Source of the DNA: Bifidobacterium pseudolongum subsp. pseudolongum DSM 20099
Lineage (GTDB): Bacteria; Actinomycetota; Actinomycetes; Actinomycetales; Bifidobacteriaceae
Assembly: GCF_000771225.1 (NCBI RefSeq)
Contig: NZ_JDTZ01000005.1
Span: forward strand, 124,001 to 188,000
Length of the DNA: 64,000 nt
Reading direction: 5' to 3'
Position numbers and translations under genes: made by a program. Shown here one piece after another: positions 1,402-25,073 of this stretch (position 1 is the first letter of the stretch; each line of letters opens with the position of its first letter). The notes beneath the pieces are model-generated. The model ran no database searches, had not been told where the DNA came from, and was given only the letters and a program-made list of their open reading frames with translations.

Positions 1402-1550
1402 CACGTCTCCCTCACCATGCGTGAGACGGAACGCCAGACCACATATCGTTCCGCCGGATACCCACGTCCATCATAGGCGACGTCATGCGTACGCATCGCC
1501 GACGCGACACCATGCGACGGCGGCGGCATCTCGCGATCGGCATACGAGAA

Positions 1551-1580
1551 AAGGCCGGCGACATGAACGTCGCCGGCCTT
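1551..1580 (-). terminator. Terminator of the sucrose transporter gene
   Basis: A perfect 12-bp stem (AAGGCCGGCGAC / GTCGCCGGCCTT) with a 6-base loop lies 27 bases after the transporter stop. On the minus strand it is followed by TTTT. The rest of the 205-bp gap between 1402 and 1606 shows nothing else recognisable. Confidence 0.85.
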
Positions 1581-1606
1581 GGCAATGTGACGATGAAGGG
1601 AAAGCG

Positions 1607-3208: not shown

Positions 3209-3252
3209 GATCTCCTCTTTTCCGTTTCGTCGTCCGTTGCGTCCGGCTGCGC

Positions 3253-6380: not shown

Positions 6381-6395
6381 ACGCGTGCTAGGCGG

Positions 6396-6770
6396 TCAAC
6401 GCCCCATCGAGCCGATCCACCAGCCCACAATCACCATGCCGAATGGGATGACGAGCGTGACGAGGAAATAGAAGGCCGCCATTGCGAATTGTTTGCTTTT
6501 GGCAAGCGAGACCATCTCGTTGACCGCCGTGGAGAACGTGGAGAAACCGCCGAGGAAGCCGGTCACAAACAGCAGATAGGTGTAGTAGCTCACCGTCTGG
6601 TATGTGTAGGCGGCCGCCGCCACTCCCGCCAGCAGCGAGGCGAGCACGTTGATGATGAACGTGGAAAGCGGGAACAGCCTGCGCCAGCTGCGTTGGATCG
6701 ACGTGTTGAGCACAAAGCGCGCCACGGCGCCAACACCGCCGCACGCGCAGATCAGCAGGAACTGGCCCAT
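6396..6770 (-). CDS. crcB: Fluoride channel FluC/CrcB, short subunit
   Basis: This 124-residue protein has four hydrophobic segments and the CrcB signature GFLGGFSTFSTA plus a conserved Asn in INVLAS. FluC channels are dual-topology dimers that let cytoplasmic fluoride leak out. The ATG at 6770 overlaps the stop of the upstream crcB by one base (TGATG), so the pair is translationally coupled. A GTG one codon earlier is also possible. Paired crcB genes in Gram-positives usually make one heterodimeric channel. Confidence 0.93.
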   Translation of the reverse strand: MGQFLLICACGGVGAVARFVLNTSIQRSWRRLFPLSTFIINVLASLLAGVAAAAYTYQTVSYYTYLLFVTGFLGGFSTFSTAVNEMVSLAKSKQFAMAAFYFLVTLVIPFGMVIVGWWIGSMGR

Positions 6771-7645
6771 CACTTCACCTCCCCAGTCATCGGATTGGCC
6801 ACCACGGGGATCTCGTCGGTGTCCGGGTCGGGGTCACCGGGGTGCGTTGTGGCCGCCAGCGCGGCGAGCGAAGCCGATTGCAGCTCGTCGTTCGGATTGG
6901 TGGGCGCTCCGCCGGCCACGTCCGGGTCGGTCGGCACGCGCACGCCGATCGCCGGCTTGGCGCGCGTCTGCATGCGCATCACGTCGGCCACAGCCTGCTT
7001 GGTGGAACGTTTCTTGGTGAGCTGCAGGCCGAGCCACGAGCCGAACCATGCGACCACGATGCCCACGATGAACGTGACCATGGTGTACAGGAAGAATCCC
7101 CAATAGCCGCCGTTGTGCATGGCGGTGATGTCTTCGATCATCATGGCCGAAAGCGTGGAGAACCCACCACACATGCCCATGCCGACGCCTCGGCTGATCA
7201 GCTGGCGCGTGCGTTTGCGGAGCCAGATCGCCTGGGTCATGTATGAGGAGAGCAGCGCAAACCCGAAGGTGGCGATCATATTGGCGATGAACGTGGCCGG
7301 GTGGAACGCCATGAGCAGGTGGTTCGTGGTGCCTTGGTACGGCAGCCACAGCCACAGCCCGTAGCGCAGCGCCGTGCCGAAACATCCTCCCAGGAACACC
7401 ACCAGATACATCAAAGCGTCGGCGAGGGGATTGAACCGCGCCTGCATGCGTTTGAGCGGCGCAAGCGGCACGCTGGGCGGTTTGCGCGCTGCCGCGGCAC
7501 CCGTGGGGTGCGGGCGCAGCAGTTCCTGCTCGAAATCGTGGGTCAGCGGGTTGTCGGAATCCGAACTCTCCGCCGGTTCACTGTATGGTCCGACTTGCGT
7601 CGTCTGCGACTGACCGCGAGAGCCGCCGTCGTCATACGTGTGCAT
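6770..7645 (-). CDS. crcB: Fluoride channel FluC/CrcB with long tails
   Basis: The 291-residue protein has a CrcB core (IANMIATFG and GMCGGFSTLSAM) flanked by a hydrophilic N-terminal extension of about 75 residues and a C-terminal tail of about 60. A standard FluC is about 125 residues, so the extensions are unusual. It is the first gene of a two-gene unit with the short CrcB and probably forms its partner subunit. The ribosome site before the ATG at 7645 is weak. I see no fluoride riboswitch in the 100 bp upstream. Confidence 0.9.
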   Translation of the reverse strand: MHTYDDGGSRGQSQTTQVGPYSEPAESSDSDNPLTHDFEQELLRPHPTGAAAARKPPSVPLAPLKRMQARFNPLADALMYLVVFLGGCFGTALRYGLWLWLPYQGTTNHLLMAFHPATFIANMIATFGFALLSSYMTQAIWLRKRTRQLISRGVGMGMCGGFSTLSAMMIEDITAMHNGGYWGFFLYTMVTFIVGIVVAWFGSWLGLQLTKKRSTKQAVADVMRMQTRAKPAIGVRVPTDPDVAGGAPTNPNDELQSASLAALAATTHPGDPDPDTDEIPVVANPMTGEVK

Positions 7646-7747
7646 TGTGGGGTGTCACCGCCTCGGTACTTCTTTGGGCTTGGGCGCGTGCCGTCCGTGA
7701 TATCCCTATAAGGCAGGGCCAGGGCGGCGCACACCACGTAGTGGACA

Positions 7748-9034
7748 TCAGTCAATGAGTGAATGGATCTCGATGATGTGGTCGCGCTGCGGGCCGGTGC
7801 CAATGACCGAGATACGGCAATTGGACAGCTCTTCGAGACGCTTCACATACGCCTGGCAGTTGGCCGGCAGGGCATCGAAGCTGTGCACCTGCGAGATGTC
7901 CTCGGTCCAGCCCGGCATGGTCTCGTAGATCGGTTTGGCGGCGGCGAACGCCGTCTGGTCGGTCGGCATGTCGTCGTAGCGCACGCCGTCCACGTCGTAG
8001 GCGACACAGATCGGAATCCGCTCAAGCCCAGTGAGCACGTCAAGCTTGGTGAGCACGATGTCAGTCAGACCGTTGACCTGCGTGGCGTAGCGGTTGACCA
8101 CCGCGTCGAACCAGCCGCAGCGGCGCGGGCGGCCGGTCGTCACGCCATATTCGTGGCCTTGCGCGCGCAGCCAATCGCCCCACTCGTCAAACAGCTCTGT
8201 GGGGAACGGGCCTTCGCCCACGCGCGTCACATACGCCTTGGAAACACCGATCACTCGGTCGATCTTGGTGGGGCCCACGCCGGTGCCGGTGCATGCGCCG
8301 CCCGCCGTGGGGTTCGACGACGTGACGAAGGGGTAGGTGCCATGGTCCACATCGAGCATCGTGGCCTGGCCACCTTCGAACAGCACGGTCTTGCCATCGT
8401 CGAGGGCGTCGTTGAGCACGAGCGACGTGTTCGCCACATACGGCTTGAGGCGCTTGCCCAGTTCGAGCAGCTCCTCCACGGTCTGGTCCACGTCGATGGG
8501 CCTGCGGTTGTACAGTTTGACGAGTATCTGGTTCTTCTGGTGCAACGCGCTGGCCACTTTGTCGCGCAGATGCTCCTCGTTGAACAGGTCGTGCACGCGG
8601 ATGCCCACGCGGTTGATCTTGTCGGCGTAGGCCGGGCCGATGCCGCGGCCGGTCGTGCCGATCTTCTTCTTGCCGGCGAACCGTTCGGTGACCTTGTCGA
8701 TCGTGCGGTGGTACGGCGCGATGATGTGCGCGGATTCGCTCACGAGCAGGCGCGAGCAATCGATGCCACGGCTTTCGAGCCCGTCGATCTCCTGAAACAG
8801 CACTTCGGGGTCCACCACAACGCCGTTGCCGATGACCGGCGTGGCCCGCGGGCTGATGATGCCGGACGGCAGCAGGTGCAGCGCATACGATTCGTCGCCC
8901 ACGACCACGGTGTGTCCTGCATTGTTGCCGCCGTTGAACCGGGCAACGTAATCCACCTTGGTGCCGATCAAATCAGTGGCTTTGCCTTTGCCTTCGTCGC
9001 CCCACTGGGCGCCGATCAATACGATTCCAGGCAT
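7748..9034 (-). CDS. purA: Adenylosuccinate synthetase
   Basis: The 428-residue enzyme joins IMP and aspartate using GTP to make adenylosuccinate, the first committed step to AMP. It begins [18 protein letters not shown], which holds the GDEGKGK phosphate loop and the catalytic aspartate. It also contains the family signature around NGGNNAGHT and [11 protein letters not shown]. Length matches the family. The ATG at 9034 follows AGAGGAGC; the frame continues upstream but without family similarity. It is probably monocistronic, between fba and the crcB pair. Confidence 0.98.
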
Positions 9035-9132
9035 GTCTGCTCCTCTGGGTCGCCGTATTCCCGCCGAGGCAAGGTTACCCCACGCCCTGCCCGTTTGGCT
9101 AGAGGCGGCGGCGCCAGAGGTGCGAAACCGCG

Positions 9133-10197
9133 CTACTTGAGCGCGCGGCCGGCCGATCCGAGCTGCTCGCACGCCTCGACGACGCGCGCCGCCATCGAAT
9201 CCTCGGCTTCGCGGCCCCACGAACGCGGGTCGTACATCTTCTTGTTGCCGACCTCACCGTCCACCTTGAGCACTTCGTCGTAATGGCTGAACATGTGGCC
9301 CGCCACCGCACGCGTGAACGCGTACTGTGTGTCGGTGTCGACGTTCATCTTCACCACGCCGTACGAGACGGCTTCGGCGATCTCCTGCGCGGTGGAGCCG
9401 GAGCCGCCGTGGAACACGAGTTCGAACGGCTTGCCCTCGGGCGCATCGGCGTCGAGCACCGCGTGCACAGTGCCGTCCTGCACACCGCTCCACACACCCT
9501 GCTGGATCTCGTGGAGCAGTTCGGGGCGCAGCTTGACGACGCCTGGCTTGTATGCGCCGTGCACGTTGCCGAACGTGAACGCCGCCATGTACCGGCCGTG
9601 CTCCCCCAGCCCGAGCGCGTTGGCCACTGCGATGCCGTCTTCGACCGTGGAATACAGTTTTTCGTTGATTTCCGCGCTATGGCCGTCCTCTTCTCCGCCC
9701 ACCGCGCCGATCTCGATTTCGAGCACGGTGTGCGCCTGCACGGACTTGTCGAGCAGCCGGCGCGCGATCTCGATGTTCTCGCGCAGCGGCACGGTCGACC
9801 CGTCCCACATGTGCGACTGGAACATCGGCTCGCGGCCGTGCTTGACTTCGTCGATCTCGATGTCGAGCAGCGGCTCGACCCATTCGCCGAGGTACTGCTT
9901 GGCGCAGTGGTCGGTGTGCAACGCCACGGTGACGTTCGGGTATTTGCGCGCCACTTCGTGCGCGAACGCGGCGAACGCGAGCGACCCGGTCACGCGGTCC
10001 GCCACGCGCTGGCCGGAGAAATATGCGGCGCCGCCGACCGACACTTGGATGATGCCGTCCGATCCGGCGTCCGCAAGCCCCTGCAGGGCCGCGTTGAGCG
10101 TCTGGCTGCTCGTCACATTGATCGCGGGGTACGCGTAACCGCCGCGGCGGGCGGCGTCGAGCATCTGGGCATATCGTTCCGGCGTTGCAATAGTCAT
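9133..10197 (-). CDS. fba: Class II fructose-bisphosphate aldolase
   Basis: The 354-residue zinc aldolase interconverts fructose-1,6-bisphosphate with dihydroxyacetone phosphate and glyceraldehyde-3-phosphate. Visible family features are [10 protein letters not shown] near residue 100 (zinc ligands), [15 protein letters not shown], and [11 protein letters not shown] near residue 260. I place the start at the ATG giving [13 protein letters not shown], as in other bifidobacterial Fba proteins. An ATG three codons earlier (10206) is also in frame, and neither has a strong ribosome site. It is transcribed away from the deacetylase gene, with a shared 210-bp upstream region. Confidence 0.97.
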
Positions 10198-10407: not shown

Positions 10408-11694
10408 GTGACCACGATGAACAGCACAGACCCGCGCCCCGACGACGATTGGAATCTCGAAGATGCGGCAGACTCCGCAGACACCGGCGATGTCGAAGAG
10501 CTGGATATCGCCACGGACAAGCGCGGCATGGGCCCGGTGGCCACGGCGCTCGTCACCGTGGCGGTGGCGGTGCTCGTAGTGGCGGGTGCAGGGTTCGGCT
10601 GGTGGATGTGGCAGAACCACTGGCGGCAGGTCAGCATCACCGTGGACGGCGATCAGCTGCACGCACGCGCCGACACGACCGTGGCGCAGTTCCTGGCGGA
10701 CCACGGCGATTTCCAGCGCAAACCGGGCAGGCTCGTCTCGCTCAAAGGCGATGTGCTCGAACCGGCCGGCGGCACCGCCGTGCAGGTCAAGCTCGACGGC
10801 ACGGTCATCCCGGTAAGCGAGTACGGCAGCACAACGCTCGCCCGCGCCACCACGATGACGGTCACACCGGGCACCGACCGCACCGAGGAACACACCGTGG
10901 AACAGCGCAAAGTGCCGTTCACCACCGACATCAACCTCAACAACGGACCGATCCAAGTGGTCACGCAGCAGGGCAAAGACGGCACGGACGAAATCTGGAT
11001 CGGCAAACGGTCGAAGCAGGAAATCAAGAAGCGCACGGTGGAGCCGATGAAGAAGCTCACTGTGCAGTCGTTCTCGCCGCATCCCGAAGGCAAGAAGGTC
11101 ATCGCATTGACGTTCGACGATGGGCCGAGCCAATATACGGGGCCGATTCTCGACATCCTCAAACAGAAAAAAGTGAAGGCCACGTTCTTCGATCTGGGTG
11201 AGGAGGCGCTCGCGATGCCCGCGCTCGAACAGCGCATGGTCAAGGAGGGGCACCAGGTGGCCTCGCACAGCGTTTCGCACCCATACTTGCCCAACATGAA
11301 TGCGGAAGAGCTGCGCAAGGAGATCACCACGAGTTTCGCCGACCTCAAAGAGGCCTCCGGCACCGTCACACGCACGATGCGCGCGCCCTACGGCGCGTTC
11401 GGCGTGCAGCAGTGGAAGGACGCCGCCACGGTGCTCGACCGGAACGTGCTGTGGACGATCGACACCTTGGATTGGAAGCGGCCCGGTGCCAAGGCGATCC
11501 ACGACGAGGTGATGAAGAACGCCTACAACGGCGCGATCGCGCTGATGCACGACGGCGGCGGCGACCGCACGCAGGACATCCAGGCGCTGCCCGGCATCAT
11601 CGACGACCTCAAGAAGCAGGGCTATTCGTTCGTCACGATCGACGAGCTGTGCGAGATGGGCGGCGTGCCGAACGCCGCGCAAGGAGAGGAGTGA
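10408..11694 (+). CDS. Membrane-anchored polysaccharide deacetylase
   Basis: The protein has 428 residues. A 41-residue acidic cytoplasmic tail leads to one membrane helix (about 42-68), then an extracellular DUF348/G5-like beta region (about 70-200) and a NodB deacetylase domain (about 225-415). NodB motifs are present: TFDDGPSQYT, SHSVSHPYL with the two metal histidines, and RAPYG. The likely substrate is peptidoglycan N-acetylglucosamine or N-acetylmuramic acid, inferred from the domain pair. The start is GTG at 10408; an ATG at 10417 is an alternative. Confidence 0.9.
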   Translation: MTTMNSTDPRPDDDWNLEDAADSADTGDVEELDIATDKRGMGPVATALVTVAVAVLVVAGAGFGWWMWQNHWRQVSITVDGDQLHARADTTVAQFLADHGDFQRKPGRLVSLKGDVLEPAGGTAVQVKLDGTVIPVSEYGSTTLARATTMTVTPGTDRTEEHTVEQRKVPFTTDINLNNGPIQVVTQQGKDGTDEIWIGKRSKQEIKKRTVEPMKKLTVQSFSPHPEGKKVIALTFDDGPSQYTGPILDILKQKKVKATFFDLGEEALAMPALEQRMVKEGHQVASHSVSHPYLPNMNAEELRKEITTSFADLKEASGTVTRTMRAPYGAFGVQQWKDAATVLDRNVLWTIDTLDWKRPGAKAIHDEVMKNAYNGAIALMHDGGGDRTQDIQALPGIIDDLKKQGYSFVTIDELCEMGGVPNAAQGEE

Positions 11695-16613: not shown

Positions 16614-16958
16614 GGTTTCACGGTACATCGGCATGCCTGGACCCGTCTTGTATCTATTCTTTCGGCGTCATGGGTTGGGCGGCACAGCCCCTTTCGCCGC
16701 TACAGGTAGTGCTTCTTCCGCTACGGGTAGTGCTTCCGCAGGCAAATTCCATCTACAAACGTTGAAAAATAGCGGTTTTTAGGGTTGGCTCGGCTGGAAA
16801 AGCACTACCCGTAGCAACGGCGTGGTCCTCGGAAGTATGTTGCCAAATAATTCTCAAAATGGCTCGCACTTCATGTGATTCATGAGGTTCACAAGATTCA
16901 TGAGATTCTAGAATCGGCCATTTTCCAAGGGTTCAGACCAGAGGGTTGGTATATAAAA
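16614..16958. other. Gene-free, repeat-rich left flank of the island
   Basis: No gene is supported. The stretch holds a CTAC(A/G)GGTAGTGCTTC direct repeat (16701-16735), its inverted partner at 16800-16815, two GATTCATGAG repeats near 16880-16900, and a GATTCTAGAATC palindrome. TTTCCAAGGGTTCAG at 16922-16936 recurs inverted inside the island at 17018-17032. Confidence 0.6.
16720..16815. repeat. GCTACGGGTAGTGCTT inverted-repeat element, copy A
   Basis: GCTACGGGTAGTGCTT (16720-16735) and its exact complement AAGCACTACCCGTAGC (16800-16815) enclose 64 bp. A degenerate extra copy of the left end lies at 16699-16714. The same 12-base ends frame a different core at 36850-36913, which suggests a dispersed element family. 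Confidence 0.7.
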
Positions 16959-16983
16959 GAGCGGATGACGGGAGTCGAACCCG
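16959..16983. other. attL core
   Basis: These 25 bases are identical to 25002-25026, which form the 3' acceptor strand and most of the T arm of tRNA-Gly(CCC). Identity stops sharply at both ends, as expected for a site-specific integration core. Confidence 0.8.
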
Positions 16984-17036
16984 GCTAGGCACCCTTGGAA
17001 TAGAGCCGTTCCTACCGCTGAACCCTTGGAAACTCA
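16959..17036 (-). pseudogene. Partial tRNA-Gly-like sequence at attL
   Basis: Read on the minus strand, the sequence has a perfect D arm (GTTCAGCGGTAGGAAC), an anticodon-loop-like ATTCCAA, and the T arm and 3' acceptor strand copied from tRNA-Gly. The 5' acceptor strand is missing and the anticodon stem pairs badly, so it cannot make a normal tRNA. TTTCCAAGGGTTCAG at its 5' end is repeated in inverted form 80 bp away, outside the att core. Confidence 0.6.
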
Positions 17037-17086
17037 ACGTTTTAGAGTTTCGTTGAATAACGTGGATACGGCATGTTTTTCAGATA

Positions 17087-17107
17087 TTTGTTATCAATTT
17101 GTTATCA
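17087..17107. promoter_or_regulatory. Integrase arm-type site pair, left
   Basis: TTTGTTATCA occurs twice with an 11-bp period and overlaps the integrase stop codon. An identical pair sits at 24919-24939, and in each case CGCGGCC follows. In the circular form the two pairs would flank the att core in the same orientation, as arm sites of tyrosine integrases do. Confidence 0.6.
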
Positions 17108-18194
17108 CGCGGCCATTCTCGCATATGCGCCGTTCCACGTCCATCGCCACCGCGTCCAAGTCCGTATCGAACAAATCTGCATAGGTGTCGAGCGTCATGG
17201 CGGCTGTTTTGTGCCCTAGCATTCTTTGCACGGCCTTCACGTTCGCACCCGACGAGATCGCTATGGACGCGGCAGTATGGCGAAGGTCATGCATGGTCAG
17301 CGCCGGAACTCCCGCCACTGCGATCGCACGCGCATACCACCCCTTGCCCCGCGCCGACTGCTCACCGAGCCACCTGCCGTGCGCGTTGCCAGGGAACAGC
17401 AGATCGTCATGCTGCTTGCCGACACACTCGCCCAGTATCACGTTCATCACGGAAGGGGCCACAGGCACCTCGCGCCGCTCATGCGTCTTCGGCAACCCCT
17501 CGACGTAGACGCCATTGACACGCACGACGCTATGGCGCACCAACAGGCGCGAACGTTCAACGTCCACGTCCTCGACGCGCAACGCGCGCAGCTCACCGAA
17601 CCGCAGCCCACAGAAGCCAAGCGTGAGGATCACCGCGCGATGCTCGCCCGCCGCGTCCGCCAGGGCAAGCAACTGCTCGACCGTGAGATATGTGCGCGCC
17701 TTGTGTGTCTTCCTGGGCAACTGGACGCCCTCGCATGGATTCCTGCGCATCACGCCGTCCTTGACCGCGAGCTTGCACACGCCGTTGAGCACGTCATAGG
17801 CACGGCGCACGATCGTCGCGCTTCGCTCCGCACCCATGGCACTCACCCACGCCTGCACCTCGCTGTATCGGAGCTTGCCGACCTGCCGCCGCCCCCATTT
17901 GGGCTGCACATGCACACGCCATGAGCTTTCGAGATCACCCCAATACTTCGGCTTCACCGTCCCCTTCTTGCCTTCAAGCCATGTGGCCGCGAGATGGTTC
18001 ACGCTGACCTTGCCGAGTTGCGGGTCTATGTAGTCGCCGTCATTGACGCTGACCAACATACGCGCTGCGTAGTCCTCCGCGTCGCACTTGCGCGTAAAGC
18101 CGCGTTTGGTGTGCTGCACTTCTTCCGCGTCACGGTATGAGACATACCACCAGCGCTTGCCTTTTCGTGTCCGGTACTCATGCACGCTCGCCAT
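17094..18194 (-). CDS. int: Tyrosine recombinase/integrase of the island
   Basis: The 366-residue protein has an N-terminal arm-binding region (to about 60), an SAM-like core-binding domain (about 65-160), and a catalytic domain. The catalytic set is Arg in GLRFGELRAL, Lys in LPKTHERREVP, His and Arg in MHDLRHTAAS, His in MLGHK, and the nucleophile Tyr in LDTYADLF. The ATG at 18194 follows GGGAGGGAG; an ATG six codons upstream is less well placed. It starts 14 bp after the repressor stop, so the two are probably one unit. Its 3' end lies about 110 bp from the attL core, the usual place for an integrase. Confidence 0.96.
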   Translation of the reverse strand: MASVHEYRTRKGKRWWYVSYRDAEEVQHTKRGFTRKCDAEDYAARMLVSVNDGDYIDPQLGKVSVNHLAATWLEGKKGTVKPKYWGDLESSWRVHVQPKWGRRQVGKLRYSEVQAWVSAMGAERSATIVRRAYDVLNGVCKLAVKDGVMRRNPCEGVQLPRKTHKARTYLTVEQLLALADAAGEHRAVILTLGFCGLRFGELRALRVEDVDVERSRLLVRHSVVRVNGVYVEGLPKTHERREVPVAPSVMNVILGECVGKQHDDLLFPGNAHGRWLGEQSARGKGWYARAIAVAGVPALTMHDLRHTAASIAISSGANVKAVQRMLGHKTAAMTLDTYADLFDTDLDAVAMDVERRICENGRVITN

Positions 18195-18208
18195 GTGACT
18201 CCCTCCCG

Positions 18209-18790
18209 TCAATCCTCCAGCTTCGCCGCCACCTTGCGCATGTAATCCAGTATTTCATCTGCCAACACGCGCGTCACCCTCCCGCGTTTCTGCGGTGTCG
18301 CACCCTCGCCCGCGCGCATCGCGGCCTCTTCATCGAGACTATGGCCATATAGGGCCATGCACGCGCCGTGCAGCGCTTCGGCATCTACATCGTTCCGTTT
18401 CGCTAGCCGTGTCTCTGCAAGCGTCGCGTACAGCGGCATGAGCCGAGCGTGCTCAAATGGGTCAGCTATGTTCACTGGACGTCCGCCGAGTGCGTTGAAG
18501 AATCCATCTTCATCGATCTTGAACCCGTCGCCCACTTCTATCGCGGCACAGTCCGCGAACACGTCCGAGATCGTCAGATCGTCGCCCGCGAGATCGTTGA
18601 GTGTCGCGAGCAGGATCGTCAGCGTTTCGAGCGAATCAGCCTTGCTGCCGCCGCTTTCCATGTAGCTTAGTGTGCTTGCAGTCCAGCCGCTTTCATACTT
18701 GTGTGAGGCCGTGGCGATCTGGTCGAGCGTCAGCCCATGTTCCGCACGATAGCCTCGTAGCCACTTGCCGACAATCAAGTTCATCTTCAT
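18209..18790 (-). CDS. XRE-family repressor-like regulator
   Basis: The 193-residue protein has an N-terminal helix-turn-helix (LRGYRAEHGLTLDQIATASHKYESGWTASTLSYMESG-type, residues 11-46) followed by an acidic region of unknown fold. It occupies the immunity-repressor position: same strand as int and divergent from the excisionase and replication genes, with two matching palindromes in the 126-bp gap. The likely job is to hold the plus-strand genes off and set integrase level. The first ATG (18790) and one two codons later are both possible starts. Confidence 0.85.
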   Translation of the reverse strand: MKMNLIVGKWLRGYRAEHGLTLDQIATASHKYESGWTASTLSYMESGGSKADSLETLTILLATLNDLAGDDLTISDVFADCAAIEVGDGFKIDEDGFFNALGGRPVNIADPFEHARLMPLYATLAETRLAKRNDVDAEALHGACMALYGHSLDEEAAMRAGEGATPQKRGRVTRVLADEILDYMRKVAAKLED

Positions 18791-18836
18791 GTGAAAAATC
18801 CTAACCTTGAGACCCCGACACGCCGAAGCTGTGCAT

Positions 18837-18857
18837 AAGTTCGGTAATTACGAACTT
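18837..18857. promoter_or_regulatory. Operator 1 in the int/xis switch region
   Basis: AAGTTCGGTAATTACGAACTT is a near-perfect palindrome. It shares AAGTTCG..TAATT.ACGAA with the next site 37 bp away. It lies between the divergent repressor and excisionase-like genes. Confidence 0.7.
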
Positions 18858-18873
18858 GTGGTATGTTGATACT

Positions 18874-18897
18874 CAAGTTCGTTAATTTACGAATCTG
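18874..18897. promoter_or_regulatory. Operator 2 in the int/xis switch region
   Basis: CAAGTTCGTTAATTTACGAA is a second, less symmetric copy of operator 1. It ends 20 bp before the excisionase-like start codon, so binding would block the plus-strand transcript. Confidence 0.65.
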
Positions 18898-18916
18898 TGA
18901 ACGGAGGTTATTGAAA

Positions 18917-19183
18917 ATGGCTGCTCAAGTGAAAGACGTGGCGGCGTCTCTGCTCGTGGTGTGGAACACGCTTCAGGCGAAGCTATCCACCGCCGCGAAC
19001 CCTGATGAACTGCTGATGACGCCCGAGGAGGTCAGCGCATACACAGGCGTGAGCGTACAGGCGCTCGCGATGTTGCGATACAGGGGCAAGGGTCCGAAGT
19101 GCCTGCGCCCATCACAGCGCGTCATACGCTACCGCAAGCACGACGTCGATACATGGGTGAACGGACAGGAGGAATCGAAATGA
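18917..19183 (+). CDS. Excisionase-like HTH protein
   Basis: The 88-residue protein has a MerR/AlpA-type winged helix in its second half: LMTPEEVSAYTGVSVQALAMLRYRGKGPK, then YRKHDVDTWV. This is the usual shape of small recombination directionality factors and phage regulators. The ATG at 18917 has GGAGG nine bases upstream; an earlier in-frame start would overlap operator 2. It is the first gene of the plus-strand set and overlaps the next gene by four bases. A role in excision is inferred from position and fold. Confidence 0.8.
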   Translation: MAAQVKDVAASLLVVWNTLQAKLSTAANPDELLMTPEEVSAYTGVSVQALAMLRYRGKGPKCLRPSQRVIRYRKHDVDTWVNGQEESK

Positions 19184-19359
19184 GCGACAAGTGGGAGGAA
19201 CTCAAGCAATGGCTTGAGGAAGGCATAGAGGCCGAGACCCAACTGGTGAACATCACGAAAGCCGAAAACTACTTCGCCTACAACGAAGCGCTCGGACACC
19301 TTGAGGCCATGCGCAGCGTCCGCAACCACATGGACCTCATGGAACTCAAGGAAATCTAA
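19180..19359 (+). CDS. Small acidic protein, unknown
   Basis: This 59-residue, Glu- and Leu-rich, probably helical protein starts within the stop of the preceding gene (ATGA). GGAGGAATCG lies in front of it. It has no family I recognise. Tight packing within the plus-strand island operon supports it being a real gene. Confidence 0.65.
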   Translation: MSDKWEELKQWLEEGIEAETQLVNITKAENYFAYNEALGHLEAMRSVRNHMDLMELKEI

Positions 19360-19373
19360 GGAAGGAACCCGAC

Positions 19374-19727
19374 ATGAGCACTGTAACCGTGTTGCGTCTC
19401 ATCTTCGAGACGCTTACAAGCCGCCTGCACGCGGCAATCTCGCGCGTCTGTGAAGCCGACATGAACCCATTGGCCGAAACCGGCGAACTGTTGCGCATCA
19501 TGCAGATCATGCAACGCGAGGCAATCGGAAGCGAACACGACCGTGAAGGCGACAAGGACGCCAAACGACGCCGCCTGAGACGCCTACGCGAGAAGATCGC
19601 ACGCTTACGCGAGAACAACGAACACCAGGTAGGCAACAGCCACGAGGCCGCCTACCTCGCGAACGCGCGTATCAAGACCGATGACGTGGCGCTCGCCATG
19701 ATCGATGACGCATTGAAAGGACTATGA
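19374..19727 (+). CDS. Hypothetical helical protein
   Basis: The 117-residue protein is predicted mostly helical. A highly basic middle segment (DAKRRRLRRLREKIARLREN) suggests nucleic-acid contact or a coiled coil. A good AAGGAAGGA site precedes the ATG, 14 bp after the previous gene. The family is not recognised. Confidence 0.65.
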   Translation: MSTVTVLRLIFETLTSRLHAAISRVCEADMNPLAETGELLRIMQIMQREAIGSEHDREGDKDAKRRRLRRLREKIARLRENNEHQVGNSHEAAYLANARIKTDDVALAMIDDALKGL

Positions 19728-19730
19728 GCC

Positions 19731-19916
19731 ATGGCAATCATGTCACCGGCGCTCGCAGCCTCACCGCCCGTGCGCTTCACCCCCGACGAACTCGCCTACC
19801 GGGGCGATGGAATACCCCGGGACGCTTCAGGAAAACCCCTGCCATGGGTATGGGAGTACCTGACCGAAACACAACGCCGACAACTCGAACAGGAACGGAA
19901 GGAAGGCGACCGATGA
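19731..19916 (+). CDS. Small protein upstream of helicase, unknown
   Basis: The 61-residue protein has a Pro-rich middle and a charged C-terminal end. It begins three bases after the preceding stop and overlaps the helicase start by four bases, so translation is coupled. Function is unknown. Confidence 0.6.
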   Translation: MAIMSPALAASPPVRFTPDELAYRGDGIPRDASGKPLPWVWEYLTETQRRQLEQERKEGDR

Positions 19917-21061
19917 CACTGGCGATAGCGACAACCGAACGACAGGCCGCAATAGATGACGCTCTGATCGCCAACGTGGACAGGCTCGCGCAATCGCAGC
20001 ATGACGGGCGTCGTATCGCGCTCACGCGCGCCTGCGATGTGAAAGTGGAACGCCCCGTGTTCCTGCACAACCCACTCGTACCCGCCAAGGTGCTCACGCT
20101 CATAGCTGGACGTGCGGGCGTATCGAAGTCCACGCTGAGCATTGACATAGCCGCCAAGGCCACACTTGGCAAGCTCACGGGCGACTGGAACGGACGGCCC
20201 GCCACCGTCGCGTTCGCGGCCATCGAGGACGACGCGGGAATGCAGAAGGCACGACTACAGGCGGCGGGAGCGGACATGACGCGCGTGCTCTTCATCACCG
20301 TGGACGATACAAGGAACGGCAACACGGTGAGCACCGGCCTTAAACTACCCGACGACACCGCCACCTTGCGCGACACGCTTCGCGAGCATGACGTGAAGCT
20401 GCTTATCATCGACCCGATCACCTCGTGCATTGACGGCAACACCGACAAGCGCGACGACGTGCGCCGCAGCCTCGACCCACTCGCGGCGATCGCCCAAGAA
20501 CTCCAGATCGCCATCATAGGCATTCTTCACTTCAACAAGGGCGGCGGCTACGCTTCCGACAAGGTCAGCGGCTCGCACGCCTTCCGTGACACCGTGCGCT
20601 CGCTGATCCTCGTGGCCAAGGACGACGAGACGGGCGAATGCGTCGTGACGCTCGACAAAAGCTCGTACACGCCACAGCAAGGGCAATCGTACAAGTACAC
20701 GCTCGCCCCGCGCTTCATCACCGACGACGACGGCGAACGAATGGAAGTGCCCATCATCGCCAACTTCGCGCCGACCGACACCAACGTGAACGAGATCATC
20801 AACCGCAACATAAACGGAAGCGACAACGGCCCGAGAACCGCCGCACACGAGGTGGAGGAATGGCTTATGTCCTACTTGGCCGAGAACGGGCCGACGAACT
20901 TCAAACAGATCGCCGCAGACGCCAAGGAAGCCGAAGGATACACCGCCAAACAGCTCCAGCACGCCCGCGAACGCGCCGCCGAGCCGCGCATAGTCACCCG
21001 CAAGGACACCACCTACACCGGCCGTGGCCAACGTGCGCTATGGGAGATCGAGCAACTATGA
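19913..21061 (+). CDS. RepA-like hexameric helicase (AAA_25)
   Basis: The 382-residue protein has a RecA-type ATPase core of about 190 residues starting near residue 55. The Walker A region reads GRAGVSKST rather than the usual GxxGxGKS/T, with Ser in place of the last Gly. Walker B is LLIIDPI, followed by HFNK, matching RepA/AAA_25 helicases of phages and plasmids. The C-terminal 100 residues look like a winged helix. It probably unwinds the island's own origin during autonomous replication; the repeat-rich stretch directly downstream fits this. The ATG overlaps the previous stop. Confidence 0.85.
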   Translation: MTLAIATTERQAAIDDALIANVDRLAQSQHDGRRIALTRACDVKVERPVFLHNPLVPAKVLTLIAGRAGVSKSTLSIDIAAKATLGKLTGDWNGRPATVAFAAIEDDAGMQKARLQAAGADMTRVLFITVDDTRNGNTVSTGLKLPDDTATLRDTLREHDVKLLIIDPITSCIDGNTDKRDDVRRSLDPLAAIAQELQIAIIGILHFNKGGGYASDKVSGSHAFRDTVRSLILVAKDDETGECVVTLDKSSYTPQQGQSYKYTLAPRFITDDDGERMEVPIIANFAPTDTNVNEIINRNINGSDNGPRTAAHEVEEWLMSYLAENGPTNFKQIAADAKEAEGYTAKQLQHARERAAEPRIVTRKDTTYTGRGQRALWEIEQL

Positions 21062-21084
21062 CGCATTACTACCCACAAGCACAT

Positions 21085-21300
21085 GGGGAGAAATATGGGG
21101 ATAATTCAAAAACCCATATATTACAAGGGTTTACGATTACTTCCCATTATTCCCCAACTGGAACACGACACATGGGGAGCAATATTACTCCCCACCTTCC
21201 CCGCGTCTGAGCTGGGGAGTATTGGGGACTAATCGAAAACCATTGCAAACACTGGCGTTTGAATACTCCCCATATTACTACCCATCACCATTACAGGGGA
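21085..21300. repeat. GGGGA/TCCCC repeat array, possible island origin
   Basis: The gap after the helicase gene carries ten GGGGA or TCCCC pentamers in 216 bp in both orientations, set in AT-rich sequence. The clearest palindrome is GGGGAGCAATATTACTCCCC (21174-21193). Such clustered iteron-like repeats beside a replication gene are typical of a plasmid or satellite origin, though binding by a regulator is also possible. Confidence 0.55.
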
Positions 21301-21338
21301 GTAAAAACAGCCACCCGCACCCAACGAAGGACACTGCC

Positions 21339-21587
21339 ATGAAGACGCTTCCGAAGACGCTTCCGCTACTGATCCACACCGCCCAGGGCAACAGCACGCT
21401 ATGCGGCATGGACACGTCGCAAGGCGCACCGATCACACGCGCGCAGCTCACCGGACGGCAATGGCGCACATGCCCGATATGCGAACTCGCGGCCACATGC
21501 GCCCAGCTCGACGCCGCGAGGACACAGCGCCGCCGCACCATCGACACGGCCCGCAGCCGCTGGACACAGCCCACACTCTTCAACTAA
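21339..21587 (+). CDS. Small Cys-containing protein, unknown
   Basis: The 82-residue protein contains WRTCPICELAATC, a possible partial zinc site, and a basic C-terminal tail. Ribosome site CGAAGGAC precedes the ATG. It is the first gene after the repeat array. The family is not recognised. Confidence 0.6.
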   Translation: MKTLPKTLPLLIHTAQGNSTLCGMDTSQGAPITRAQLTGRQWRTCPICELAATCAQLDAARTQRRRTIDTARSRWTQPTLFN

Positions 21588-21608
21588 CACAACGAAGGAG
21601 ATCACCAC

Positions 21609-21941
21609 ATGAGCGCCATCAAACCCGTCTACAGCCGCCCCAGCGACGACGAACCCGCACCCGCACCCAAGAGGAAACGCCACCGCAAGCGCGCACACCG
21701 CAACAAGAGCGTCCACACCACGGACACCCTTGCAGCCGCCCCGGTGAAAGAGATCGCGGAACACGACCCACTTCACGAAAACGATGGGGTAGCGTTTCAC
21801 GACCCCACCACGGGCACCCACCACACGCGCAACCAGCGTACCCACCAACGGGCCAAACGCCGCGCCCGCGAACTACGCGACGAAAACGAGAAACTGCACC
21901 GAAGGCTCGCCGCGATCTACGACGCGCTCACCCTCGACTGA
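21609..21941 (+). CDS. Basic coiled-coil protein, unknown
   Basis: The 110-residue protein has a very basic N-terminal part (KRKRHRKRAHRNK) and a C-terminal helix (RELRDENEKLHRRLAAIYDAL) likely to form a coiled coil. AAGGAGATC precedes the ATG. It may bind nucleic acid, but this is only inferred from charge. Confidence 0.65.
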   Translation: MSAIKPVYSRPSDDEPAPAPKRKRHRKRAHRNKSVHTTDTLAAAPVKEIAEHDPLHENDGVAFHDPTTGTHHTRNQRTHQRAKRRARELRDENEKLHRRLAAIYDALTLD

Positions 21942-21951
21942 AGGAGACGAC

Positions 21952-22200
21952 ATGTCCACAAGGAAAACGGGTGTACCCGAACCCACAGCCAAACAGATCG
22001 CCTACAGCCGCATCGCCGCCGCACACCTCGCCATACGACTACTCAACGACGCCGCAGACGCGCTAATGACAGGCCACGACATGCCAGCCCCACGACTGCC
22101 GCGCGCAAGCCCCACCGACGACGCCGTAACCGCCCGAAGCCTCCAGATCATAACGAAGGCGCTCGCGGACTACGCGCGCACCAACACAAGCAACGAATGA
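21952..22200 (+). CDS. Hypothetical small protein
   Basis: The 82-residue helical protein follows GAAGGAGACGAC. It lies 10 bp after the previous gene in the same operon. No motif is recognised. Confidence 0.6.
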   Translation: MSTRKTGVPEPTAKQIAYSRIAAAHLAIRLLNDAADALMTGHDMPAPRLPRASPTDDAVTARSLQIITKALADYARTNTSNE

Positions 22201-22204
22201 AAAA

Positions 22205-22241
22205 GACGGCGTTCAGGCCTCGACCAGCCAAGAACGCCGTC
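22205..22241 (+). terminator. Hairpin within island operon
   Basis: GACGGCGTTC and GAACGCCGTC pair perfectly around 17 bases, directly after a stop codon and just before the next ribosome site. There is no U-tract, so it may shape expression between genes rather than end transcription. Confidence 0.45.
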
Positions 22242-22257
22242 AGAAAGGAAGTCCGAC

Positions 22258-22629
22258 ATGACCCCCACAACCAACACTAGCACCACGCCACGCAACCCGT
22301 GGACAGGCGAACCACTCCCGCCATTGCCCAAGGTCAGCCACCCCGAAAACTGGAGATTCCAATTCGAGGACGACGGAGACATGTTCTGCATCTACGACGA
22401 TCAGGACGCGCCCATAGCGCTCACCTTCAACGCCTACGCATGGAAAGACGGCCGCGTTGACTGCGGGGCCGCGAGCTGGACAAGCGACATACTCGACCTA
22501 GACCAACTCGAACAAGACGCCGCCCGCATACCCGCATGGATCGCGGAAATACGCGCCGTCACCCAATGGGCACACCAAGCGTTCGGTCACAAAACCGCGG
22601 GTGGCGATAAATGCCGCACAACCAACTGA
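22258..22629 (+). CDS. Hypothetical acidic protein
   Basis: The 123-residue acidic, Trp-containing protein looks soluble and globular (NWRFQFEDDGDMFCIYDD). A good AAAGGAAG site precedes the ATG. I do not recognise it. It belongs to the late half of the island operon. Confidence 0.6.
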   Translation: MTPTTNTSTTPRNPWTGEPLPPLPKVSHPENWRFQFEDDGDMFCIYDDQDAPIALTFNAYAWKDGRVDCGAASWTSDILDLDQLEQDAARIPAWIAEIRAVTQWAHQAFGHKTAGGDKCRTTN

Positions 22630-22665
22630 ACACTACGCGCACACCGCATGACAAGGGGAGGAACA

Positions 22666-22848
22666 TTGGACACGAAACGGCCACTGAGCGACTACACGCG
22701 CGGCGAACTCGAAGAACGGATAAGTCGGCTCAACGCGGAGGCGCGCGGCTACCGTCTGAAAGCGGCCGACTGGAAACGACAGGCACTGTTTTGGGAAACC
22801 TACGCCAAACGGCTGGAAAACAACGACGGCGCTCGCGGCACCGCTTAA
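22666..22848 (+). CDS. Small protein with TTG start, unknown
   Basis: About 60 residues, mostly charged and helical. The TTG at 22666 is preceded at ideal distance by GGGGAGG, so I prefer it to the in-frame ATG at 22648. It is followed by a hairpin and then the capsid gene. Function is unknown. Confidence 0.5.
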   Translation: MDTKRPLSDYTRGELEERISRLNAEARGYRLKAADWKRQALFWETYAKRLENNDGARGTA

Positions 22849-22924
22849 GAGGCTTGCGAAACCCGACACGGGGAGGTATATTCGCCGTGTAATTCTCACC
22901 TAAGCGTTTGGTCAGTATTACAGC

Positions 22925-22973
22925 AAGCGGCAGCAGACGCAACACATTGCACCTACTGCCGCTTCCAATTTTT
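22925..22973 (+). terminator. Terminator upstream of capsid gene
   Basis: AAGCGGCAG and CTGCCGCTT form a 9-bp stem around 22 bases, followed by CCAATTTTT. It separates the small-gene operon from the capsid gene, which suggests the capsid gene has its own expression signal or depends on antitermination. Confidence 0.6.
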
Positions 22974-23008
22974 CCGGCAGTCGGGTGCCACACCAAGAAA
23001 GGCACACC

Positions 23009-23836
23009 ATGTCTACCATCACCACCAGCGGCATTGAATCCGCCTACGGGGCAACCGCATTCCCCTCAACAACCGCGATCCCCGACGCGCTCGTACACTC
23101 GCAGTCGCGAGTGTCCGCCGTCATCGAAGGCGATTCACCCGCCCTGCATGTCCCCTATATCGCCACCCAGAGCACCGCGCAGATCGTCAAGGAGGGCGAC
23201 GCGATCCCCGAAGGCGGCGCGGCGGCAAGCGAGATGATCGTCTACACGCGCAAAGTCGCGAGCATCGAGACGATCACCAACGAGGCGAAATCGTCCGAAC
23301 AGATGACACAGATGCTCACCGCGTCGCTCAACACCGCCATCATGGACAAGGCGAACGCCGTGTTCCTCCAGAACCCCAAGCCCGACGGTAGCGAAACGTC
23401 CCCGACCGGACTGTTCAACCTCGAAAAAGTGAACGCGGGCACGCTCACCGGCTCGCTTGACGCCATCGTGGAAGGCATCGCCGCGATCAGCTCCAAGGGC
23501 GGCACGCCCACGTCAATCATCATGAACCACGGCACATGGGCGAAACTGCTGCTGTTGAAGTACACGGACGGCCGACCCATGATCGCGCCGAGCGTCGCGG
23601 ACAGCCCGACGCCCATGCTCTACGGCCTGCCGGTCGTGCTCACCAAGGCCGCCCCAGATTCCAAACTGCTGATCAACGACGCCAACGAGGTCATCAGCGC
23701 CGTAGGCAGCGTGAACCTCAACGGCAGCGAAGACGCCGAGTTCTCGAAAGACAAGTACATGCTACGCGGCACGTTCCGTCTTGGATGGGGCGTGATCCAC
23801 CCCGACCGCCTCGCAGTCATCACCGTAACCGAGTAA
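23009..23836 (+). CDS. HK97-fold phage major capsid protein
   Basis: The 275-residue protein matches the phage capsid family in order: an N-terminal arm, an E-loop region (VPYIATQSTAQIVKEGDAIPEGG), then the A and P domains with SPTGLFNL, MNHGTWAKLLLLKYTDGRPM and GLPVVLTKAAP, ending in FRLGWGVIHPDRLAVITV. There is no N-terminal delta/scaffold domain, so the length is that of a mature subunit, and no protease gene is nearby. AAGAAAGG lies ahead of the ATG. It is the only clear virion gene of the island. An encapsulin-like role cannot be excluded from sequence alone. Confidence 0.88.
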   Translation: MSTITTSGIESAYGATAFPSTTAIPDALVHSQSRVSAVIEGDSPALHVPYIATQSTAQIVKEGDAIPEGGAAASEMIVYTRKVASIETITNEAKSSEQMTQMLTASLNTAIMDKANAVFLQNPKPDGSETSPTGLFNLEKVNAGTLTGSLDAIVEGIAAISSKGGTPTSIIMNHGTWAKLLLLKYTDGRPMIAPSVADSPTPMLYGLPVVLTKAAPDSKLLINDANEVISAVGSVNLNGSEDAEFSKDKYMLRGTFRLGWGVIHPDRLAVITVTE

Positions 23837-23847
23837 GGACACCCACC

Positions 23848-24054
23848 ATGCTGAACACAACCCACACCACCACGACAACCCCAGCCACCGCCGAGAAGGC
23901 CACCCCCCTCGCCGCACGCCTGCGCGACGCATGGAAACAAGACCACTTCGCCGGGGAATCCGAGTTCATCAGGTTCGAGGCGATCGCACGCGCAGCCGAC
24001 GCACTCGAACGCATCGCGGACGCGCTGGAGGCGAACACCAATGGCCGACACTGA
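23848..24054 (+). CDS. Small protein after capsid gene, unknown
   Basis: The 68-residue protein has a Thr-rich start and a helical, alternately charged second half (FEAIARAADALERIADALEAN). It begins 11 bp after the capsid stop with AAGGACA ahead. Its 3' end overlaps the next gene by 14 bp. The family is not recognised. Confidence 0.6.
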   Translation: MLNTTHTTTTTPATAEKATPLAARLRDAWKQDHFAGESEFIRFEAIARAADALERIADALEANTNGRH

Positions 24055-24367
24055 AACCCTGGAACCAACCGACGAAGACGCGCAGCGCGCCGAACTCGAA
24101 CAGCTCAGGCAATTCAAGCAACAGGCCGAACAAGCCCAAGCACGCGAACAGATCATAGGCAAGGTCAGCGAGGCAAGCGGCATACCAGCCACACTGCTCA
24201 ACTACCTTCCAGCCGACGCCGACGAAGACACGCTCAACGCCTTCGCCTACGCGCTCGACCAGTTCGCACACCCAAAACCACAAGGAATGCCAAATCAGGG
24301 AATGCAGCCGAACATCACCCCGAACGCGACACTGCACGACATGCAAAACGCGCTATTCCACAACTGA
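24041..24367 (+). CDS. Acidic coiled-coil protein, possible scaffold
   Basis: The 108-residue protein is acidic and Gln-rich with a long helical stretch (AELEQLRQFKQQAEQAQAREQII) and a Gln/Asn-rich C-terminal tail. This make-up recalls phage capsid scaffolding proteins, and it sits one gene after a capsid gene that lacks a built-in scaffold domain. Scaffold genes usually precede the capsid gene, so the assignment is tentative. Confidence 0.55.
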   Translation: MADTETLEPTDEDAQRAELEQLRQFKQQAEQAQAREQIIGKVSEASGIPATLLNYLPADADEDTLNAFAYALDQFAHPKPQGMPNQGMQPNITPNATLHDMQNALFHN

Positions 24368-24376
24368 CATAGGGAA

Positions 24377-24399
24377 CCTAGGGGGAGCCACCCCCTAGG
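24377..24399 (+). terminator. Hairpin after possible scaffold gene
   Basis: CCTAGGGGG and CCCCCTAGG form a 9-bp G/C-rich stem with a 5-base loop, directly after the gene. No U-tract follows. Confidence 0.5.
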
Positions 24400-24474
24400 G
24401 TTCTCCCCAGCGACCACGGGCAAAGCGCTGATATATCCCCAGAAACCCACACTGTTACGTAATAGGAGGCCGGA

Positions 24475-24852
24475 ATGATCGTTTGCCAGCACTGTGGAAG
24501 GACATTCCGGCCCCATACCGGCGCGGGACGCAAGGCGCGCTATTGCAGCGCCGCGTGCAAACAGGCCGCCTACAGGAAACGCCACACGGAACGACGCACC
24601 GCCCTCGACCTCAGCCGCGAGGAGTTCGACGCGATGCAAGACGGCTCACTGATAGACCAACTGCGTTTCGTGCGCGACGTGCTGGGCAACGCGCTACGCG
24701 ACACCGCCACACCGGCCGGAGCGCTCGCAGCGATCAGCCGCACGTACATCGACGCATGTACCCAGATCGCGGCGATAAACAGCGCGGACGACGAAGACGA
24801 GCTGCTCACCGCTGCCGATGCCGAAGAACCCTTCACCCTGAACGACATCTGA
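24475..24852 (+). CDS. Zinc-ribbon protein, unknown
   Basis: The 125-residue protein begins with a CxxC...CxxxC knuckle (MIVCQHCGRTF, then ARYCSAACKQAAYRKRH). This N-terminal unit is common in small actinobacterial and phage proteins. The rest is acidic and helical. TAGGAGG precedes the ATG. Position at the right end of a capsid island could suggest packaging or regulation, but nothing in the sequence proves it. Confidence 0.65.
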   Translation: MIVCQHCGRTFRPHTGAGRKARYCSAACKQAAYRKRHTERRTALDLSREEFDAMQDGSLIDQLRFVRDVLGNALRDTATPAGALAAISRTYIDACTQIAAINSADDEDELLTAADAEEPFTLNDI

Positions 24853-24918
24853 ACCCGCGAAGAAAAATCGGTAAAAACGATGTTCGCGCCGACTGCAAGG
24901 GCGCTTCGTTTTCACATG

Positions 24919-24939
24919 TTTGTTATCAATTTGTTATCA
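24919..24939. promoter_or_regulatory. Integrase arm-type site pair, right
   Basis: Two TTTGTTATCA copies with an 11-bp period match the left pair at 17087-17107. The identity covers 28 bp in total, so it also looks like a copy of the last codons of int. It lies 55 bp from the attR core. Confidence 0.6.
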
Positions 24940-24961
24940 CGCGGCCGTTCTATGGCAAAGG

Positions 24962-24995
24962 AAAACCGCTAGAATCGTTGGAATCTAGCGGTTTT
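24962..24995 (-). terminator. Terminator of tRNA-Gly
   Basis: A perfect 12-bp stem (AAAACCGCTAGA / TCTAGCGGTTTT) with a 10-base loop lies just beyond the tRNA 3' end. On the minus strand it ends in TTTT. By position it is carried by the island, which restores both the tRNA 3' end and its terminator. Confidence 0.75.
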
Positions 24996-24999
24996 TCAG

Positions 25000-25073
25000 T
25001 GGAGCGGATGACGGGAGTCGAACCCGCCTCTAAAGCTTGGGAAGCTTTCGTTCTACCGATGAACTACATCCGC
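25000..25073 (-). tRNA. tRNA-Gly(CCC)
   Basis: The minus strand folds as a complete tRNA: a 7-bp acceptor stem (GCGGATG/CATCCGC), D arm GTTCATCGGTAGAAC, anticodon stem AAAGC/GCTTT with loop TTCCCAA, and a T arm ending in CCCGT, followed by an encoded CCA. Its 3' 25 bases are the attR core of the island, so the integration keeps a working tRNA. Confidence 0.95.
25002..25026. other. attR core
   Basis: The 25-bp core identical to attL at 16959-16983, inside the 3' part of tRNA-Gly(CCC). Confidence 0.8.

Follow-up and report, generated by a model that had tools for sequence, protein, structure and literature searches.

The window analysed here is a 64-kb stretch (64,000 nucleotides; contig NZ_JDTZ01000005.1, positions 124,001 to 188,000) of the Bifidobacterium pseudolongum subsp. 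pseudolongum DSM 20099 genome, and its positions 16959-25026 constituted a mobile island of about 8 kb integrated at a tRNA-Gly(CCC) gene. This island is probably a minimal capsid-encoding phage satellite, which would bring its own shell and small terminase subunit (TerS) and borrow the large terminase subunit (TerL), portal, tail, and lysis functions. It displayed the sequence traits of a satellite: (i) an integrase and attachment (att) repeats at a fixed site; (ii) a replication gene, a probable origin, a repressor-like gene, and an excisionase-like gene (xis-like); and (iii) no complete complement of virion and lysis genes. A first-pass annotation, made from the letters of the window, had already proposed a minimal capsid-encoding satellite; this proposal was favoured by the recurrence of the island and by its capsid clade (see below), and it had to be amended in that the island also encoded a scaffold homologue and TerS.

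The capsid gene (23009-23836, forward strand) encoded a major capsid protein of 275 amino acids (aa) with the HK97 fold, and the HK97-type assignment of the first-pass annotation was borne out by PF05065 (E 2e-22). The capsid family profile aligned to mature HK97 gp5 from profile position 56 onward (E 5e-11), and the protein was as long as mature gp5 (275 aa versus 282 aa in the PDB chains) and thus had no delta domain, so that it should need no protease. A structure model built from 33 sequences (mean pLDDT 70, pTM 0.62) matched HK97-type capsids in PDB (best E 1e-10, TM-scores about 0.45-0.6) and also phage capsids in BFVD; an earlier model from six sequences (pLDDT 38) was discarded, and one capsid relative, L043 from B. 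vansinderenii, entered the structure alignments only. Among 50,697 phage records, the window capsid matched Salinibacter phages alone (184 records, 29% identity, E about 1e-6), the capsid of the actinobacterial relative L106 (see below) had no phage match, and the plasmid comparison gave no match.

Relatives of this capsid were found at 18 loci in 16/112 Bifidobacterium genomes, the window included (17 loci in 15 other genomes), with 31-54% identity and open frames at all 18; the search of the genus gave 24 matches, and six of them (E 5e-6 to 1e-4), which belonged to longer frames encoding ordinary phage capsids, were left out. Fifteen of the 18 loci were islands with mapped ends, bounded by att repeats that measured 21-52 bp and were located at tRNA genes of seven anticodons (Gly, Val, Arg, Phe, Lys, and Leu), and their sizes fell within 6949-8952 bp (mean 8243, standard deviation 547). 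The three unmapped loci were L025 beginning at a contig end, L038 filling an 8.1-kb contig, and L035 with no tRNA found. The gene set, the order of which the first-pass annotation had proposed to seek at other tRNA loci, recurred in the 15 mapped islands, namely integrase toward one end, replication gene, and then capsid, with the order relative to the tRNA gene varying. In a census of called genes of at least 250 aa, every such gene of these 15 islands belonged to the integrase, the replication-type ATPase family (AAA_25, DUF3987, and DUF3631), or the capsid, the family assignment in L031 and L033 being made by similarity only; DUF3987 and DUF3631 are taken by us to be replication helicases. 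Gene calls in the relatives came from a simple caller of our own, and some small genes there may therefore have been overlooked or wrongly placed. No TerL (phrog_2 and PF03354) was found adjoining any of the 18 loci; the closest candidate was a weak match 33 kb off in genome G073.

In a 69-row capsid tree, the 18 Bifidobacterium capsids and eight capsids from other actinobacteria (L106 to L113) constituted one clade with support of 100/100, which held 0/32 phage, prophage, or virome rows and 0/11 other actinobacterial element rows. The same clade was recovered in an 85-row tree (96/91), from which the 69-row tree was derived by dropping the long-branch L088 and most near-duplicate prophage rows and adding 13 IMG/VR rows plus one Salinibacter row. 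The sister group of this clade (91/91) was composed of small islands L114 and L118 with L115 and L117, and the richer TerL- and portal-carrying elements of other actinobacterial genomes, L119 (the one checked) and its kin, formed another capsid group. Within this sampling, the minimal type looks like an old separate lineage.

The eight loci L106 to L113, the genomes of which may belong to Mycobacteriaceae, were counted with the minimal type: five of them had mapped ends (8.7-10.1 kb), and no TerL or portal was found among their large genes tested. They displayed additional genes as follows: a head-tail adaptor in L106 and L110, a 515-aa protein without family in L106, and a 963-aa protein with matches to endolysin and tape-measure families (6375-9266) in the satellite-type island L112. 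In L109, a partial second capsid gene (10464-10799, 111 aa) adjoined the full one. The satellite label was rejected for the whole of the non-Bifidobacterium capsid loci because L119 carried TerL and portal; L116, L120, L121, L123, and L124 had the TerL and portal families in common with L119 (TerL of L120 being a fragment), L115 contained a portal, a TerL-family gene, and tail-like genes, and only L106 to L113 were therefore retained.

Two genes downstream of the capsid extended the virion-related module of the island. Separated from the capsid gene by a 68-aa gene without assigned function (23848-24054, forward strand), a capsid scaffolding protein homologue (24041-24367, forward strand) matched phrog_9857 (E 3e-9) and had counterparts in L025, L026, and L028 (E 9e-12, 5e-16, and 1e-14, respectively); it reached E 0.035 at best against the Pfam scaffold DUF4355 and had no phage match. 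The TerS homologue (24475-24852, forward strand), composed of a zinc-finger-like N-terminal part plus a TerS domain, was recognized from phrog_1459 (E 7e-6) and synteny. The first-pass annotation, which had listed no virion gene besides the capsid and no terminase, had overlooked the scaffold homologue and was mistaken as to the small terminase subunit; its statement stood for TerL, and likewise for portal, protease, tail, and lysis genes, none of which was found in the Pfam and PHROG scans of the island open reading frames (ORFs) or in the gene census. Because a scaffold homologue and TerS are encoded, the island would bring part of its own packaging specificity.

The island TerS had 38% identity (E 8e-18) with the gene that immediately precedes TerL in the Bifidobacterium phage PMBT6, and phage ctl617 also carried a match to it. 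A TerS homologue adjoined TerL at 21 non-satellite, phage-type loci in Bifidobacterium genomes, and it was located directly 5' of TerL at 20/20 examined loci (18 of these 21 plus PMBT6 and ctl617); the other matches in the genus comprised five places with the zinc-finger part only, one capsid-less element (L203), and three satellites. PMBT6 and ctl617 shared the gene order HNH–TerS–TerL, and satellites held parts of this set, with TerL not found in them: the HNH gene of L027 was 70% identical to that just ahead of TerS in PMBT6, L028 and L040 had other HNH genes, and L038 gave a weaker HNH match. The element L203 (6679-16347 in G097:C14), located near a tRNA-Ser gene, contained two integrases, a primase, HNH, and TerS with no capsid match, and it may be a capsid-less relative of the satellites.

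The sequence comparison was also applied to pairs of islands. The window island and its sister island L031 (genome G062, same tRNA) were about 90% identical in DNA sequence across the flanks and the integrase and about 70-83% identical up to position 19926, and they had short matching patches only from 19926 to 24855; their integrases were 92% identical and their capsids 38%. In the pair L036 (tRNA-Lys) and L041 (tRNA-Gly), the capsids were 91% identical and the integrases 28%. As judged from these alignments, the capsid module is exchanged independently of the integrase module, and the capsid cassette moves between islands while being kept functional: the L036/L041 capsid pair, the one pair analysed, displayed dN of 0.079 and dS of 1.15, i.e. 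purifying selection with dN/dS of about 0.07, a rough value because dS is near saturation.

A life cycle can be proposed from features that were all read from sequence: the anatomy, att sites, gene families, recurrence in the genus, module exchange, purifying selection in one pair of capsids, and the placement of TerS ahead of TerL in phages. The island, which sits in tRNA-Gly, would be kept in place by its helix-turn-helix (HTH) repressor, and, upon induction, it would be excised by its own integrase and Xis and replicated from an iteron origin with the AAA protein. The capsid and scaffold would then build a small procapsid without a protease, and the island TerS would bind island DNA and pass it to TerL of a TerS-carrying helper phage (PMBT6 and relatives), which would package it through a borrowed portal fitting the shell. 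The helper would have to provide TerL, portal, neck, tail, and lysis, and the element would thus combine a dedicated small shell with helper dependence. The PMBT6 genome is 36.6 kb; on the assumption that a genome of this size fills a T=7 head, volume scaling predicts about 16 kb for a T=4 head and 10 kb for a T=3 head, so that the 8.2-kb island would fit T=3 once or T=4 twice. A wider proposal could go either way: a long-lived actinobacterial satellite lineage would supply only the shell (capsid plus scaffold) and TerS, form hybrid particles with its small shell on the portal, motor, and tail of a helper from another capsid lineage, and trade its shell modules independently of integration.

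Several results weigh against a satellite with its own shell and TerS. (i) In the host genome (99.98% complete), PF03354, phrog_2, and phrog_9 detected no TerL, PF04860 detected no portal, and PF05065 detected no capsid besides that of the island, and hence no helper was shown; three tyrosine recombinases were present, one being that of the island. The helper is either not resident or of a kind missed by the models used, and known satellites are also found in genomes without a possible helper (PMC11389934). (ii) In IMG/VR, four capsid queries gave no relative, and the 80 relatives listed out of 91 for the fifth query, A7, were all distant (24-43% over matched segments). (iii) Scaffold families at E 1e-5 or better were matched by 7/15 tested capsid-adjacent genes, and that of L036 had a weak match to a minor-tail family instead. 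(iv) Full-length TerS was carried by 3/18 Bifidobacterium satellites (the window island, L025, and L027), L029 and L031 matching its zinc finger only, and the packaging step is therefore not uniform among satellites. (v) The satellite TerS proteins ended in PFTLNDI, EFNMNDI, and AFTQADL, unlike the phage ones, which ended in IV or VV in 17/20 cases; TerS of L200 to L202 ended in PFDAE(T/A)(I/L), closer to the satellite ends though overall identity was lower (about 29%). If the TerS tail contacts TerL, the helper may come from the L200-L202 subgroup rather than being PMBT6-like. (vi) A clean empty site was not obtained among seven relatives having tRNA-Gly with an htpX-like neighbour: six of them had no integrase match beside the tRNA, the left flank was recognized in one (L159), and L163 ended at a contig end.

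Three other explanations were weighed against the satellite with its own shell. The capsid might form no shell alone and instead co-assemble with the helper capsid, e.g. as pentamers, giving small heads and blocking the helper; this is possible, albeit rather unlikely. It has a precedent in Ccm of SaPIbov5 (a Staphylococcus aureus pathogenicity island, SaPI), a capsid homologue located at procapsid pentamers that makes no capsid alone (PMC8569155 and PMC5052747), and an island without a portal would have helper head parts mixed in anyway. Like the island, SaPIbov5 is a small satellite that occurs integrated, carries a single capsid homologue, and lacks protease, portal, and TerL; Ccm, however, has a delta domain and occupies pentamers within a helper-made shell, and SaPIbov5 is described as having no TerS (PMC8569155 and PMC5052747), whereas the 275-aa island capsid has no delta domain and is accompanied by a scaffold homologue and TerS, and assignment to the SaPIbov5/Ccm type was accordingly rejected. 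The island capsid also showed no close relation to the PMBT6 capsid (hhalign probability 6%, separate groups in the capsid tree), an argument that is weak because Ccm and its helper capsid are likewise just distantly alike (PMC5052747).

A decayed prophage, i.e. a larger prophage that lost most virion genes with the capsid left over by chance, is scarcely credible, even though the island has its capsid, scaffold, and TerS families in common with prophages and L115, with its portal and TerL-family gene, belongs to the sister group of this capsid clade. The first-pass annotation had considered that homologues might occur solely as truncated prophage parts or as decayed pseudogenes, and neither was found: 15/18 loci were tRNA islands of 7-9 kb sharing one gene set and a narrow size range, their capsids formed a clade of their own without any phage row, and the open capsid frames (18/18) and the low dN/dS of L036/L041 indicated a maintained gene. 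As no capsid frame was broken and the scanned ORFs contained no remnant of a portal, TerL, or tail gene, the decayed prophage was rejected. It is very unlikely, finally, that the capsid serves interference or a cell function, as an encapsulin-like shell or a decoy, instead of packaging the island. A lone shell gene without protease or portal does recall encapsulins, and the virus-like particle 2e0z, which we take to be encapsulin-type, was a weak profile match to the capsid (E 2e-4); yet the best sequence and fold matches were phage HK97-type capsids, none of the 50 fold matches listed was named encapsulin, and TerS, HNH, and scaffold genes accompany the capsid. Encapsulin identity was rejected on the lead of phage capsids in both searches and on the adjacent TerS and scaffold, while interference finds some backing in Ccm, which also blocks its helper (PMC5052747).

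Read as a satellite with its own shell, the island was compared with known systems. Capsid-forming phage-inducible chromosomal islands (cfPICIs) and the Streptomyces satellites MulchRoom and MiniFlayer likewise encode their own major capsid protein and need helper parts; unlike the island, cfPICIs carry protease, portal, connectors, and both terminase subunits, and MulchRoom and MiniFlayer encode TerS, TerL, portal, and scaffold, of which the island shares scaffold and TerS and lacks the others (PMC10690885). Membership in cfPICIs was rejected, the island having capsid, TerS, and scaffold with no portal, TerL, or protease found. The pac-type SaPIs similarly possess a satellite TerS that would redirect helper TerL to satellite DNA, but they shrink the helper capsid via CpmA and CpmB, whereas the island carries a capsid gene instead (PMC8569155). 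A capsid homologue has likewise been described in PmCI172 from Pasteurella (PMC6092414), and a survey of actinobacterial prophages described many small elements below 15 kb that could be satellites (PMC10023795).

The nearest counterparts in print are candidate phage-inducible chromosomal islands predicted in Mycobacterium (Abad et al. 2023), the mobilisation of which was not yet shown according to the available text. Like the island, they have an integrase and a major capsid gene, some at tRNA genes, and some also contain helicase, scaffold, and terminase genes; they are defined there by integrase plus capsid alone, and no portal-less, TerL-less type is separated in that part of the source (PMC10654092). 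The window island is therefore not unique. A literature search found no paper on capsid-encoding Bifidobacterium satellites, and, as most subscription papers were outside its coverage, absence from print is unproven. The island would represent a step between satellites that reshape the helper head and those that make whole heads, with shell, scaffold, and TerS kept and portal and motor borrowed. Should these shells prove compatible with a foreign portal, the 18 related shells would offer a natural series on which portal-shell specificity could be tested; a candidate helper group is also hereby named for satellites of a major gut genus.

The remaining genes of the island were arranged as follows. 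The tyrosine integrase gene (17094-18194, reverse strand; PF00589, E 5e-20; phrog_1, E 1e-63) encoded 366 aa, or 372 aa from a TTG start at 18212, and was followed by genes for an HTH repressor-like protein (18209-18790, reverse strand; HTH_31, E 5e-5, below the Pfam cut-off; phrog_3, E 1e-4) and an excisionase-like HTH protein (18917-19183, forward strand; HTH_17, E 2e-8; phrog_66, E 1e-6), the frame of which had been started at 18863 in the first-pass annotation. Three small genes (19180-19359, 19374-19727, and 19731-19916, forward strand) preceded the gene for a 382-aa AAA_25 replication protein (19913-21061, forward strand; PF13481, E 3e-27; phrog_10729 polymerase/primase, E 3e-33). A probable origin (21065-21305) was recognized by motif count: TGGGGAGTAWT, allowing up to two mismatches, had 21 copies in the window against about 10 expected per 64 kb, and 12 of these iterons lay within 241 bp. 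Five more small genes (21339-21587, 21609-21941, 21952-22200, 22258-22629, and 22648-22848, forward strand) were located between origin and capsid; the nine small island genes, including the 68-aa gene, obtained no function from the Pfam and PHROG scans, and a PADLOC scan gave merely two weak matches (E 0.001 and 0.009). The integrase, repressor, excisionase-like, replication, and origin calls of the first-pass annotation were backed by these family matches and by the iteron count.

Second recombinases were observed in some relatives: a tyrosine recombinase between replication gene and capsid in L028 (8748-9716) and L040 (3966-4820), and three tandem tyrosine recombinase genes (985-4445, G073) beside L035, the satellite without a tRNA found.

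The island was bounded by the 25-bp direct repeat on which the first-pass annotation had placed its ends. The left att core (16959-16983) and the right one (25002-25026) were identical over 25 bp (E 1e-9; 28 nt at 96% if extended), and the right copy was the 3' end of the attachment gene tRNA-Gly(CCC) (25000-25073, reverse strand). Inside these cores lay the two copies of a 43-bp repeat (93%; 17077-17119 and 24909-24951), each containing two TTTGTTATC sites, and these four were all the TTTGTTATC sites of the window. L031 had TTTGGTACC where the window island had TTTGTTATC, with two copies at the integrase end, one at the opposite end, and one just beyond the integrase-side end; TTTGTTATC and TTTGGTACC are putative integrase arm sites that would change together between islands. 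Beside the left att core, a tRNA-like stretch (16984-17033), read as D-arm and anticodon-arm like and nearly identical in L031, suggested that attP of the element may resemble a pseudo-tRNA. A perfect 15-bp inverted repeat (16922-16936 and 17018-17032) straddled the left att site, with one arm chromosomal and one in the island. In genome G052, the same tRNA-Gly was occupied by an island (L160, 2138-9877) with a 48% identical integrase and different other genes, interpreted, with no family search made, as FtsK-like and replication-initiator-like.

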